Source of the DNA: a bacterium
GTDB taxonomy: Bacteria; T1Sed10-126
NCBI GenBank assembly: GCA_003557545.1
Contig: PWOD01000224.1
Span: 1-8,057, forward strand
Direction: 5' to 3'
DNA: 8,057 nucleotides
This document shows positions 1 to 7,041 of the stretch, piece by piece. Each line of letters begins with the position of its first letter. Positions within the stretch are counted from its first letter, which is position 1. The position numbers were made by a program, and so were the translations under genes. The notes under the pieces were generated by a model that worked only from the letters and a program-made list of their open reading frames with translations, was not told where the DNA came from and did not search any database.

Positions 1-360
1 GAAAACTTTCTTAATGTCTCAGATGAAGAAATAGAAGATGCAAAAGCTGCTTGGTTTTATGCATCCCCTAATGGGAAACATGATATCGGTATATGGGAAG
101 TGGCGCATAAATCATGCTCAATGGATGAAAATAAGGTAGAGGAAAACTTAGAAAATAAGTTAGAGGAAAACTCCGATGAATTCCATATAAGTGAAAAGGC
201 AAAGCGGTTCATGAGTCAGAATAATCTCAATCTCGCATTTCTTCATTTAAATGATATTATAAAATCGGTGGTAGGAACTTACCGATTTAATGCTAGTCTC
301 TCTCATTATGATAATGATCCAACTTTTAAGTATGTGAAAGTTGAAGTTTTCCCAAGCTAG
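1..360 (+). CDS. Unknown acidic protein, 3' part of the gene, ending at TAG
   Basis: The frame is open from the first base of the window, so the true start is probably upstream; GTG at 100 and ATG at 121 are possible internal starts but neither has a convincing ribosome binding site. The visible 119 residues begin ENFLNVSDEEIEDAK, followed by a highly charged stretch with an 8-residue tandem repeat (ENKVEENL then ENKLEENS). A more ordinary alternating region follows, with a hydrophobic helix (LNLAFLHLNDIIKSVV) and a beta-like end (YVKVEVFPS). I recognise no family, signal peptide or membrane segment. It lies just upstream of the replication helicase in the same direction, so it probably belongs to the same operon. 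The oddity is the end: after the TAG the frame stays open for 38 more codons (see 361-477), so this stop may be a nonsense mutation or a read-through codon. Confidence 0.65.
   Translation, partial: ENFLNVSDEEIEDAKAAWFYASPNGKHDIGIWEVAHKSCSMDENKVEENLENKLEENSDEFHISEKAKRFMSQNNLNLAFLHLNDIIKSVVGTYRFNASLSHYDNDPTFKYVKVEVFPS
127..172 (+). repeat. In-frame 24-bp tandem repeat, two copies
   Basis: Bases 127-148 and 151-172 match at 21 of 22 positions, with a period of 24 bases, so exactly eight codons are repeated. The only mismatch (G136 versus T160) changes Val to Leu. The repeat encodes the acidic segment ENKVEENL/ENKLEENS. It looks like a recent replication-slippage duplication in a flexible linker. 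Confidence 0.8.
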
Positions 361-477
361 GTAAATGCTGATACTTCACAGGCTATGGGACTCGAAACTA
401 TGATAGACGATTTATTTCTTGAGAGTCATAAAGAAGAATATGTGAAGTTTGTGATTTTTGTTAGAAACAACAAATAA
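361..477 (+). other. In-frame open extension after a TAG stop (possible read-through or decayed C-terminus)
   Basis: Directly after the TAG at 358-360, the same frame runs for 38 codons to a TAA at 475-477. The translation starts VNADTSQAMGLETMIDDLF and ends YVKFVIFVRNNK, which looks like a helix followed by a beta-strand and fits as a continuation of YVKVEVFPS before the stop. The TAA overlaps the ribosome binding site of the helicase gene (AAAGAGG, 476-482), which is normal operon spacing, whereas a gene ending at 360 would leave the largest gap of the replication block. Alternatives are a nonsense mutation, a sequencing error, or a separate 30-codon gene from ATG 385, which lacks a clear ribosome binding site. 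In AT-rich DNA a 38-codon open stretch can also arise by chance. Confidence 0.5.
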
Positions 478-2118: not shown

Positions 2119-2121
2119 GTG

Positions 2122-3165
2122 ATGCTTAATGAAAAACTATATAAACGTATAGAAAAAGTTTTTGAACAAAAACCTGGCATTATCAACGAAGGTATGGAAG
2201 CTGAGTATAAAACTACACGTCTACGGGATGGAAGTTTTAAAGCCAAGGTAGAGGTGTTTGGGGAAGCTTATACTGTAAATTGCCGATTCTGTGGAGATAC
2301 AAGGGAAAGACTTAACATATCTTATACCTATGGCTTGGAATTGGTAAAAGACGGTAAGGTAATAAAGTTTCCCCACAGCTGGATTTGCTATAATGAAACA
2401 CAATGCGCTAATGGTAATGAACCAAGGAAAAAGAAAAATAGGCACGAACTCTATGAAGCTCTGATAGCAGGAGAACCGTTAAGGGTTGATGATAGGCATT
2501 TGCAAAAAGCTAAGAAAGAAAAAAGTGATTCGCAAAGGCCTTTACCCTATAATATGGTACCTATTGCTAATCTCCTAGATTCTCATGAGGCCAGGTCATA
2601 TTTATTAAATCGAGGAATTAATAGTGGTATTATACGGGAGGCAAATGTCCAGTACATAAAATGGGACCCTTCACCTATTTTGAAGGGAAGGATATTTTTT
2701 CCGGCTTATAGTGTGGAGGATCCCAAAGACTGTATAGGAGGACAGGCCAGGTATATAGAAGATGATGGCAGCGGTATTAAATATTATACTGTCAATAAGT
2801 TGCCGTCTCGTTCCCTGTATGGCTACCATCGATTAAAGGATAAAAATTTTGCAGTGGTAGTGGAAGGACCGTTAGATGTTTTAGCTTTGAAAGGATATGG
2901 TTTGGGGATTTATAGCTGTGCAATTACTAGAAATCAGTTAAAATTACTTAGCAAATTTAAGACAATTGTTATAGCACTAGATCCAGATTTGAAAGAAAAG
3001 AATGAATCAATGTTTGGCAGACTTCAGCGTCAGATAATAGAGCTTAAGTCTGCATCTAATGTTTATCAACTAACACTACCCGACGGGTATGACCCTGGTG
3101 ATCTGGGTTTTAGGGAAATGTTTAAATTAATAAAAAAACAATTTGGTATAATTTGGAAGGTGTGA
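2122..3165 (+). CDS. DnaG-like DNA primase with TOPRIM domain
   Basis: This 347-residue protein probably makes RNA primers for the fork. The N-terminal part has Cys54-x2-Cys57 and, about 30 residues later, Cys89-x5-Cys95 with His85 nearby, a likely zinc-binding domain of the primase type though not of standard spacing. A middle region (about 145-235) contains RGI and KGRIFFP, the usual lead-in of the DnaG catalytic core. The TOPRIM fold follows: AVVVEGPLDVLAL with Glu248 and Asp252, then IVIALDPD with Asp287 and Asp289, the metal-binding DxD. The end has LPDGYDPGDLG, like the DnaG 'P.G.DP.D' segment. At 347 residues it is far shorter than bacterial DnaG (around 600) and lacks a helicase-binding domain. 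I chose ATG 2122 over GTG 2119, because AGGTGA (2113-2118) is already very close. It follows the helicase stop codon with almost no gap. Confidence 0.85.
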   Translation: MLNEKLYKRIEKVFEQKPGIINEGMEAEYKTTRLRDGSFKAKVEVFGEAYTVNCRFCGDTRERLNISYTYGLELVKDGKVIKFPHSWICYNETQCANGNEPRKKKNRHELYEALIAGEPLRVDDRHLQKAKKEKSDSQRPLPYNMVPIANLLDSHEARSYLLNRGINSGIIREANVQYIKWDPSPILKGRIFFPAYSVEDPKDCIGGQARYIEDDGSGIKYYTVNKLPSRSLYGYHRLKDKNFAVVVEGPLDVLALKGYGLGIYSCAITRNQLKLLSKFKTIVIALDPDLKEKNESMFGRLQRQIIELKSASNVYQLTLPDGYDPGDLGFREMFKLIKKQFGIIWKV

Positions 3166-3166
3166 A

Positions 3167-3262
3167 ATGTTAATACGAGTAAATAAAGTAATGAAAGGGG
3201 AAGTTAAAAATGTTTTAATTAATGTTGATCACATTATTGAAGTTGAACCTATGAAACCTTAA
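3167..3262 (+). CDS. Small 31-residue protein, FlbD-like in appearance
   Basis: A short open frame fills most of the gap between the primase and the next gene: ATG at 3167, TAA at 3260-3262, 31 codons, beginning MLIRVNKVMKGE and ending VDHIIEVEPMKP. A good ribosome binding site, GGAAGGTG (3155-3162), precedes the ATG at normal spacing and overlaps the primase stop. The pattern (short beta-strand, turn, strand with 'I.V..DHI..VE') resembles very small phage proteins of the FlbD-like beta type ('N.d.I..ie'), a family whose function in phages is not known to me. The resemblance is by eye only and the protein is short, so it could be a non-functional open frame, but the position and ribosome binding site favour a real gene. 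Confidence 0.55.
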   Translation: MLIRVNKVMKGEVKNVLINVDHIIEVEPMKP

Positions 3263-3751: not shown

Positions 3752-6574
3752 ATGAAAATGAAGCAATTCGCGACGAAAATATTGCAAAAAGAAATTGAAG
3801 GTATTGGAAAACCAGAATTAATAGATACGGTAGCTGCCTATTATGATGAGACTGTGCTCAGAACGGCGTTACGTATGTTTTTTGACCCATCTTTGGTGGT
3901 TAGGCTGTCACCCCCCAAAAGTCCAGCTTATGCTGATACGTGGCTTCCTGGCCGCTCTCTGACAACGACAGGGCTACAGGACTGCGATAAGGGTATGATG
4001 ATTATCAGTAAAACTGTTACAGAGGAGGACCAAGCCAGAAAACACATTCTGTCTGGTGATTCATCGCTTCAGTTTTTTCAACTTCTGAAAGATACTGGAA
4101 TAGATTTAAATGACATCTACTTTACTTCAGCGTTTAAATTCAAATCTGATGATAATAAACCACCTAATTGGAAACGGGAGATAGCTCTATTTTTTCTCTA
4201 CCACGAAATCAAGGCAGTAAATCCTGAGTATATATTACTTTTGGGGACAGTTCCTTCGGTAGTTATTTTAGGTGACATACTTAAAAATACACGAGGAATT
4301 TTAAAAGAAATAGAGTTTGAATTTACAGATAAACCAATTAAGGTGTACACAACTAAAGATCCCTTTAATGTGTTAGAAAGTTCCCCTTATGAGCTGCCGG
4401 GACTCAGAGCAGATCTACAGCAATTTAGACATATCACAAAAACAGGAAGCATGAAAGAGATACCTCCTCTTAAGCATAAAGTAATTCAAAGCGAGGAAGG
4501 TGTAGTGGAAGTTATTAAAAGCATCAAAAGTGGTAGTATAGTGTCCTTGGATTCTGAGTGGGGTTATGATGGTGAAGGAGACGGCTGGCTTAGGGGTGTT
4601 CAGCTGTCGTGGAAGAAGAACGAAGCAGTATTTATTGAAGTAAATGCTGCCATAGATGATCCCGCCGAGAAGGGCGAAGAAGTTATCAATGCAAAAAAAC
4701 TAGGTAACATACTGGACAAAGCGTGTAAGCATAAAAAATTTAAACTAATAGGGCACAATCTCCGGTCTGATGCACGGATTATGCAAGACGTGCTGAGGTT
4801 TAATCCAATAGAATATGTCTTCCACGACACTATGGCAGCAGACCACCTAATCGAATGTCAACGACCCCATGGTTTAAACGACTGCATTCTCAGGGATACG
4901 GATTTAGGAGTATATGATGATGAATTAAATAAGTATATATCAGAAAGCCCTATTGATGAGAAGAAGTATGGTTATGGATTTATCCCGACGGAGGTATTAG
5001 TCCCATATGCATGTAGGGATGCCGAGGCTCTCCTGAGATTGTACGAGGTGCAGGATAAGGAAATTAAAGGAAAGCAAAGAGAGTTATTCTACAACCTAAT
5101 TATGCCGTCCCAAGCAGCACTTCTTGAATGTGAAACAACAGGGTTTAAATTAGATGTTGAAACTATAAAAGAATTTACAGATATTTTCAAACAGAAGTCA
5201 GAAGAGATAGAACAGCAACTTGAAATAATAGCTGAAGACTACGGTATGGAAAAATTTAATCCAAATAGTACAAATCAGGTTAAAGAGTTGTTGTTCGATA
5301 AGCTGGGTTTGGAGCCATTAAAAACTACCAAAGCTTATAGGGAGAAATCATGGAGCGAGGTGAAAAATTTGTCAGAAGAAGAAAAAGCAAAAAAGAAAAT
5401 TTCACCAAGCACAGATAAAGTCACATTAACGGTTCTACGTAATAAGCATGAAGCAGTTGATTTAATGTTTAGGTATAGGAAAATTGATTACCAATCGAAG
5501 AATCTGTTTAAACCATATTCAATAGATGAAAATGGGAAATTAAAACCTGAGGAGAAAAGTCTTTTGGGGTATATGGATAAGGATGGGTTTATTAGGCCGT
5601 CTGTTAATGATACCATTGATACTGGCAGAAGAAGCACCAGGAGTCCCAATCTCCAGAATATGGCAGGTAAAGAAGTAGTAGCATTATATAAAGCAGCAAG
5701 AATGGAGGATCATAAGCATCTTCGCTCTGCGATTACAAGTCCTGAAAAATATTTATTTGGTTACGCCGATTTAAATTCAGCTGAAATGTTTGTTATGGCG
5801 GAACTTTCAGGCGATGAAAATCTAAAGAAGGTGCTGTATGACCCAGCAAAAGATTTTCACAGCTCCAATGCTATTCTGATTTTCAATCTCCCCTATAAAG
5901 AAGAATACGGGGATATGAGGAAATGGCTGGAGGAAGAAGTACCAGAAGGGGAGCTGAAAAGGTCTTCAGCAAAGGCTACTGGGTTTGGGTGGAGCTATGG
6001 TATATACCCAAAAAGGCTACACCAGGACATGTTGTCCCTGGAAATACCAGCTACAGTAGACCAGTGCCGAGGATGGCTGGAATCATTTGATACGAAGTAT
6101 AGTCAAGTGGTTGAGTTCTTTAAAATAGCCGCTGATAGGGTTAATAATGAAGGGTTTGTAGAAAACCCATTTGGAAGAAGAAGGAATCTATATTATTTGG
6201 CGGATGAAGGAGCCCTCGCGCATCAGGGGCGGGCTGCTGGAAATTTCCTTATCCAATCCACAGTAGCCGACCTAACAAGAAGTATAATGATAAAAGCACG
6301 TGAAGTGAGAGATAAAGAAAAAATTGATGCGCGCCTTAGCCTGGATCAGCATGATGCAGTTACTTTTTATGTCAATGTCAAAGATGTGGGGCCGTTTATT
6401 GATGTTCTTCTACCCCAAGCTTTTGACATCCCAATACCACAAATAGATTTAAAGCTGGATTATGGTATTGAAAATTTAGGAATTTCTTGGTCAGTCCCTG
6501 ACTCAAAAGAAGAATTAATTGATTGGGGAGTTTCGGAAGAAGATTATGAAAAATATGGTAAATTTTTTACTTAA
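3752..6574 (+). CDS. Family A DNA polymerase with N-terminal UDG-like domain and 3'-5' exonuclease
   Basis: The 940-residue protein is the replicative DNA polymerase of this element. Residues about 40-230 resemble family 4/5 uracil-DNA glycosylases: SGDSSLQFFQLLKDTGID, DIYFTSAFKF, then EI..VNPEYILLLGTVPS. The GEAPG-type motif and the final HPS motif are not preserved (IISKTVTEED and TTKDPFNVL stand in their places), so base excision is doubtful. The exonuclease is intact: LDSEW (Asp267, Glu269), GHNLRSDARIM (Asp340), YACRDAEA (Tyr419, Asp423). Polymerase motif A is YADLNSAEMF (Asp673, Glu678), motif B is RSSAKATGFGWSYG (Arg737, Lys741, Phe745, Tyr749), motif C is DQHDAV (His867, Asp868, with Ala869 where most relatives have Glu). 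Residues 500-660 hold a thumb-like helical part and TGRRSTRSPNLQN. It ends in TAA, without a clear terminator directly behind. I recall similar UDG-polymerase fusions in SPO1-related phages, but cannot check this. Confidence 0.93.
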   Translation: MKMKQFATKILQKEIEGIGKPELIDTVAAYYDETVLRTALRMFFDPSLVVRLSPPKSPAYADTWLPGRSLTTTGLQDCDKGMMIISKTVTEEDQARKHILSGDSSLQFFQLLKDTGIDLNDIYFTSAFKFKSDDNKPPNWKREIALFFLYHEIKAVNPEYILLLGTVPSVVILGDILKNTRGILKEIEFEFTDKPIKVYTTKDPFNVLESSPYELPGLRADLQQFRHITKTGSMKEIPPLKHKVIQSEEGVVEVIKSIKSGSIVSLDSEWGYDGEGDGWLRGVQLSWKKNEAVFIEVNAAIDDPAEKGEEVINAKKLGNILDKACKHKKFKLIGHNLRSDARIMQDVLRFNPIEYVFHDTMAADHLIECQRPHGLNDCILRDTDLGVYDDELNKYISESPIDEKKYGYGFIPTEVLVPYACRDAEALLRLYEVQDKEIKGKQRELFYNLIMPSQAALLECETTGFKLDVETIKEFTDIFKQKSEEIEQQLEIIAEDYGMEKFNPNSTNQVKELLFDKLGLEPLKTTKAYREKSWSEVKNLSEEEKAKKKISPSTDKVTLTVLRNKHEAVDLMFRYRKIDYQSKNLFKPYSIDENGKLKPEEKSLLGYMDKDGFIRPSVNDTIDTGRRSTRSPNLQNMAGKEVVALYKAARMEDHKHLRSAITSPEKYLFGYADLNSAEMFVMAELSGDENLKKVLYDPAKDFHSSNAILIFNLPYKEEYGDMRKWLEEEVPEGELKRSSAKATGFGWSYGIYPKRLHQDMLSLEIPATVDQCRGWLESFDTKYSQVVEFFKIAADRVNNEGFVENPFGRRRNLYYLADEGALAHQGRAAGNFLIQSTVADLTRSIMIKAREVRDKEKIDARLSLDQHDAVTFYVNVKDVGPFIDVLLPQAFDIPIPQIDLKLDYGIENLGISWSVPDSKEELIDWGVSEEDYEKYGKFFT

Positions 6575-6634: not shown

Positions 6635-6955
6635 ATGAAAGTTTTTACTTATTTAATGTCAGCAGGAAATTCGTTTAAGATTGGTAAGTCAAAAGATCCA
6701 GTAGGTCGCAGAAAAGGAATACAGACCAGTAACCAAAATGAAGTTAGATTATTAGCTATGTGGGATCCACAAGATGGTGGACCATCAGAGCAAGAAACCT
6801 TAGCTATCTTTGGTAACTCCATAATGAGAGGCGAGTGGATAAAAGCAGAGAAATCCACTATTAGCAAATTTCTCAATTCAATACCAGGAGTGGTCACAGA
6901 AAGTTTTTCAGAGGCAGTTTTAAGTTCGTCTATCAGTAATCCAAAATTTCAGTAA
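6635..6955 (+). CDS. GIY-YIG superfamily protein, T5orf172/MUG113-like
   Basis: The 106-residue protein matches the small GIY-YIG-related domain known from phage T5 Orf172 and MUG113. A first strand VFTYLMSAG (residues 3-11) is followed by FKIGKSKDPVGRRKGIQT (14-31; the 'KIG' corresponds to the YIG part, Arg25/Arg26 to the catalytic arginine region). Then come strand VRLLAMW (37-43), an acidic helix start SEQETLAIF (51-59; Glu54 likely the metal ligand) and the typical GEW (66-68) before a last helix. This family is linked to DNA binding or nicking, but activity has not been shown for most members and none is claimed here. The last 20 residues are a Ser-rich tail outside the domain. The gene stands between the polymerase and the terminator at 6982-7028 and is flanked by a short direct repeat, so it may be an insertion. 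Confidence 0.8.
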   Translation: MKVFTYLMSAGNSFKIGKSKDPVGRRKGIQTSNQNEVRLLAMWDPQDGGPSEQETLAIFGNSIMRGEWIKAEKSTISKFLNSIPGVVTESFSEAVLSSSISNPKFQ

Positions 6956-6981
6956 TTTGTAATTCTGGTATTTTTCATTTT

Positions 6982-7028
6982 AACCTGCAAGGTTGTTTTA
7001 ATCTAATTCAACCTTGCAGGTTGTTTTT
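6982..7028 (+). terminator. Rho-independent terminator with perfect 14-bp stem
   Basis: AACCTGCAAGGTTG (6982-6995) and CAACCTTGCAGGTT (7009-7022) are perfect reverse complements around a 13-base loop, followed by GTTTTT (7023-7028). It would end the transcript that carries the replication genes and the GIY-YIG-type gene. Each arm is itself nearly palindromic (AACCT-GCA-AGGTT), so the DNA could also serve as a protein-binding site or form alternative hairpins. The next ribosome binding site begins three bases after the T-run. Confidence 0.85.
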
Positions 7029-7030
7029 AC

Positions 7031-7036
7031 TGGAGA
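7031..7036 (+). promoter_or_regulatory. Ribosome binding site that fixes the start at 7042
   Basis: TGGAGA lies five bases before ATG 7042. The in-frame TTG at 7021 is part of the terminator stem and is not a plausible start. Confidence 0.7.
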
Positions 7037-7041
7037 TTTCC

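Follow-up and report, generated by a model that had tools for sequence, protein, structure and literature searches.

The described systems with which the locus analysed here can be compared include TAG-recoding phages. The phage phAss-1 carries TAG in 41 ORFs together with three suppressor tRNA genes (PMC10607447), and known code-15 phages show an association of recoding with late structural genes (PMC9523058). Gene 1 of the phage operon reported here resembles the code-15 (TAG=Gln) crAss-like phages and phAss-1 in that an in-frame TAG is followed by coding-like sequence (PMC9523058, PMC10607447). A preliminary description of this DNA had considered both TAG recoding, including pyrrolysine, and a recent nonsense mutation. 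Of this interpretation, our analysis retains one coding-like frame cut by a TAG, with a nonsense change or sequence error as the simplest account; TAG recoding and pyrrolysine are not supported in the bin, and recoding is not indicated in the phage.

Results

A phage replication operon with an in-frame TAG

The DNA analysed (8,057 bases, hereafter the window) is one complete contig, C111, of a bacterial metagenome bin, which comprises 2.15 Mb in 239 contigs, is 91.9% complete and in which no SSU rRNA gene was found. The GC content of the contig is 37% compared to 46% in the remaining contigs of the bin. Profile matches (Pfam, PHROGs, NCBIfam) identify its gene content as a phage replication operon, encoding a DnaB-like helicase, a Toprim primase, a family A polymerase and a MUG113-like protein together with small genes; no tRNA gene lies within the 8,057-base window. 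The host of the phage is presumably the organism of the bin, as assumed from the binning. The relevant features are listed below with the evidence for each.

1–357, + strand: gene 1 up to the TAG, its 5' end off the contig, with no family match (ORF; codon score 0.134)
358–360, + strand: in-frame TAG (sequence)
361–474, + strand: open extension of 38 codons, coding-like, in the frame of gene 1 (ORF, codon score, shuffles)
475–477, + strand: TAA closing the extended frame (sequence)
478–489, + strand: spacer directly 3' of the TAA with the probable ribosome binding site of the helicase gene, AGAGG (sequence)
490–2118, + strand: DnaB-like replicative helicase, ATG at 490, TGA stop, no in-frame TAG (ORF and profile matches)
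2119–3165, + strand: DNA primase (Toprim), TGA stop, no in-frame TAG (ORF and profile matches)
3167–3262: 31-codon ORF, the ninth of the other complete genes (ORF)
3752–6574, + strand: UDG-like / 3'-5' exonuclease / family A DNA polymerase, TAA stop, no in-frame TAG (ORF and profile matches)

As the preliminary description had it, the TAG at 358–360 is followed by 38 open codons and a TAA at 475–477. The helicase ATG at 490 follows after 12 nt, with AGAGG just upstream. Gene 1 contains no in-frame stop besides the TAG, which leaves this codon as a single lesion.

Two further observations concern the polymerase gene and its surroundings. The protein encoded at 3752–6574 combines an N-terminal uracil-DNA-glycosylase-like domain with a 3'-5' exonuclease and a family A polymerase, and carries the motif FGWSYG at the place of FGIIYG, FGIMYG and FGILYG in the three relatives aligned with it. 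In the intergenic region at 6955–7041, an inverted repeat, AACCTGCAAGGTTG ... CAACCTTGCAGGTTG, is followed by a T run and resembles an intrinsic terminator, a candidate proposed from sequence; a related AACCTGCAG sequence occurs 3' of the polymerase gene at about 6575.

The frame beyond the TAG is coding-like

The extension had been described as coding-like, and codon usage, a shuffle test and the length of the gap to the next gene all agreed with this. On a codon score trained on the nine genes of this one contig, the short extension (38 codons) reached 0.122. Windows of 38 codons from true genes averaged 0.119, and the extension lay at their 52nd percentile. Of the open windows in other frames, only 0.9% scored as high, a share that is not an independent p value as the windows overlap. 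GC by codon position was 0.47/0.21/0.29 in the extension and 0.48/0.27/0.29 in gene 1 before the TAG, and the remaining two forward frames of the extension contained 5 and 4 stops. Among 20,000 dinucleotide shuffles of 361–489, 445 (2.2%) were open for 38 codons, and only 19 (0.1%) were both open and as coding-like as the extension. The gap between gene 1 and the helicase gene is 12 nt with the extension; without it, the gap would be 129 nt and the widest intergenic gap in a window where all others measure at most 86 nt. These findings support a coding-like extension, in the frame of gene 1 only.

Openness by itself is weak evidence, since 9–15% of the long ORFs in the MAG contigs stay open for at least 38 codons past their stop, alike for TAA, TGA and TAG. 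This agrees with the caution about chance openness voiced in the preliminary description. In a single-sequence AlphaFold model, the part encoded before the TAG contained strands, and the extension a helix and a strand. The helix-then-strand order proposed earlier was thus seen in the fold prediction, but at a confidence too low to count (pLDDT 44.5), and the model carries no weight.

TAG is an ordinary stop in the genome bin

The release-factor search and the count of TAG stops that the preliminary description had suggested were both carried out on the bin. By profile search, a prfA (RF1) gene was found above cut-off on contig C15, and a second release-factor gene, probably RF2, on contig C121. 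Among the 300 ORFs with a length of 300 aa and above in the MAG contigs read, 54 (18%) have TAG as their stop, most contigs below 3 kb (read as N) being left out of the count; the value is 17–18% at other length cut-offs. No CUA anticodon occurs among the 40 tRNAs detected in the bin, and the best match to pyrrolysyl-tRNA synthetase (PylS, TIGR02367) reached 19.9 bits compared to a cut-off of 178 bits, in a MAG that is 92% complete. TAG in this bin is an ordinary stop, and recoding or pyrrolysine is not supported. The earlier candidate causes of that kind thus find no support in the bin; a suppressor tRNA with a CUA anticodon was seen neither among these 40 tRNAs nor in the window.

Within the window, the nine other complete genes end in six TAA, three TGA and no TAG. 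This agrees with the earlier statement that the other genes never end in TAG, now counted over nine genes including the 31-codon ORF. It had also been cautioned that the absence of TAG stops is not significant alone, and indeed, with 18% TAG stops in the MAG, none among nine has a probability of about 0.17 and is therefore uninformative. No in-frame TAG occurs across these nine genes (about 2,400 codons, on one contig of the phage), and on this basis TAG recoding in the phage is not indicated.

Other phage-like contigs in the bin encode a prohead protease and capsid (C12, L013), an HTH regulator (C27, L178), and a terminase and portal (C6, L008), of which C12 and C27 are nearest to the window in GC and tetranucleotide usage (r 0.89). 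All three, which may stem from other phages, carry long genes free of in-frame TAG. C27 also carries an 81-codon ORF without family match, which is probably a TAG-ended gene and has a hairpin-like sequence directly 3' of its TAG.

Search for homologues of gene 1

Neither viral contigs, phages and plasmids nor the 41- and 386-genome sets and the PDB contained a homologue of gene 1, and no family match was obtained in Pfam, PHROGs or NCBIfam. A match to Agrobacterium phage Atu_ph04 had E=4 and was read as chance. Close phage relatives were also sought via the helicase or the polymerase; this returned polymerases only, the best-matching phage and viral ones being only 25–29% identical, and no match to gene 1 was found near the 80 best-matching viral polymerases. 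The single contig matched by a polymerase motif (L233) was unrelated.

We suspected that gene 1 belongs to an alpha-beta-DPE-beta-alpha-beta fold family, whose members would presumably align across the TAG. A hand-written consensus of this family retrieved genuine members. A smaller profile of eight members matched gene 1 marginally (33 of 2,000 shuffles were as good), and this match was lost with 17 members, where the profile gave 0.6 bits and 650 of 3,000 shuffles were as good. The probability returned by hhalign was 0.4%. The assignment was rejected. A small alpha-beta family with the motif DPE was seen at L142, L144 and L151, in several genomes; the neighbours of these genes resemble what we take to be TIGR04255-type and HEPN-like proteins.

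Discussion

Our findings suggest that positions 1–477 are probably a single phage ORF cut by one TAG, either through a recent nonsense change or through an error in the consensus. This is the simplest account, and either event is likelier than an altered genetic code. The region would then be a single frame, belonging to an ordinary gene without a known family in the replication operon of the phage, and the unbroken frame would be the ancestral state. The single TAG may have arisen recently in the sequenced population, or may be an error of the consensus; it lies 358 bases from a contig end, and read depth is often low at such ends. As the genome bin suggests standard use of TAG, termination at this codon would be ordinary and RF1-dependent, yielding a protein short of its last ~38 residues, with read-through expected at background only.

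In order of likelihood, such an interruption comes first and a true stop second; leaky read-through ranks below these, and recoding last. If the TAG were the natural end of gene 1, the DNA at 361–477, ahead of the helicase gene, would go untranslated or be open by chance. We regard this as a tentative alternative and rather unlikely, although several results are in line with it: 13 of 84 long TAG-ended ORFs in the MAG contigs are also open for at least 38 codons after the stop, the match to the suspected fold family across the TAG is no better than that of shuffles, and no homologue in the collections searched supports a continuation through the TAG. It is difficult to reconcile, however, with codon usage and codon-position GC that do not change past the TAG in the frame of gene 1 only, with the 0.1% of shuffles that are as open and as coding-like as the extension, and with a 129-nt gap as the widest in a tightly packed operon.

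A coding-like extension would also be expected if the TAG were leaky and some ribosomes read through it to give a minor, C-terminally extended product that has its own function. This appears improbable, as RNA folding at 340–489 is no stronger than in shuffles (z 0.15), Rfam gives no match in the window, and no relatives with the TAG retained were found. We are more sceptical still of the idea that a phage from a bacterial lineage with little sampling uses the single TAG, in a gene of its replication operon, to switch between shorter and longer forms of the protein, either by leakiness or with the help of a suppressor. The phage might finally recode TAG via its own suppressor tRNA, encoded off the 8-kb contig as in code-15 phages, to which we give hardly any credence. 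TAG is indeed absent from the nine other stops, the rest of the phage genome lies outside the contig, and, given the known link of recoding to late structural genes, replication genes alone do not decide against it (PMC9523058). On the other side stand one TAG here versus the 41 ORFs with TAG in phAss-1 (PMC10607447) and the lack of a tRNA in the window. The long capsid/protease genes of C12 and terminase/portal genes of C6 without in-frame TAG, and the probable TAG-ended gene on the similar contig C27, would point the same way if these contigs belong to the same phage.

An interrupted gene 1 by itself is ordinary and matters little. Read-through or recoding, if demonstrated, would mean that the replication operon of a phage can contain a regulated stop; for a single in-frame stop on a short metagenomic contig, relatives or reads are needed before recoding is called.

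Compared to the known systems, gene 1 shares with pyrrolysine-decoding organisms the in-frame TAG. It differs from them in that PylS stays below cut-off in the bin and that gene 1, lacking a family match, gives no sign of a methylamine methyltransferase. Unlike the code-15 phages, the window has one isolated TAG rather than many, with no suppressor tRNA seen and with a bin in which TAG terminates genes in the ordinary way. A proven nonsense-interrupted ORF would have what gene 1 lacks, an intact relative that establishes the unbroken frame as ancestral. In the other respects compared, gene 1 is like a nonsense-interrupted phage ORF (a point pseudogene) or an assembly or consensus error: one stop stands in an otherwise coding-like frame that carries no further lesion, in a bin with the standard code.
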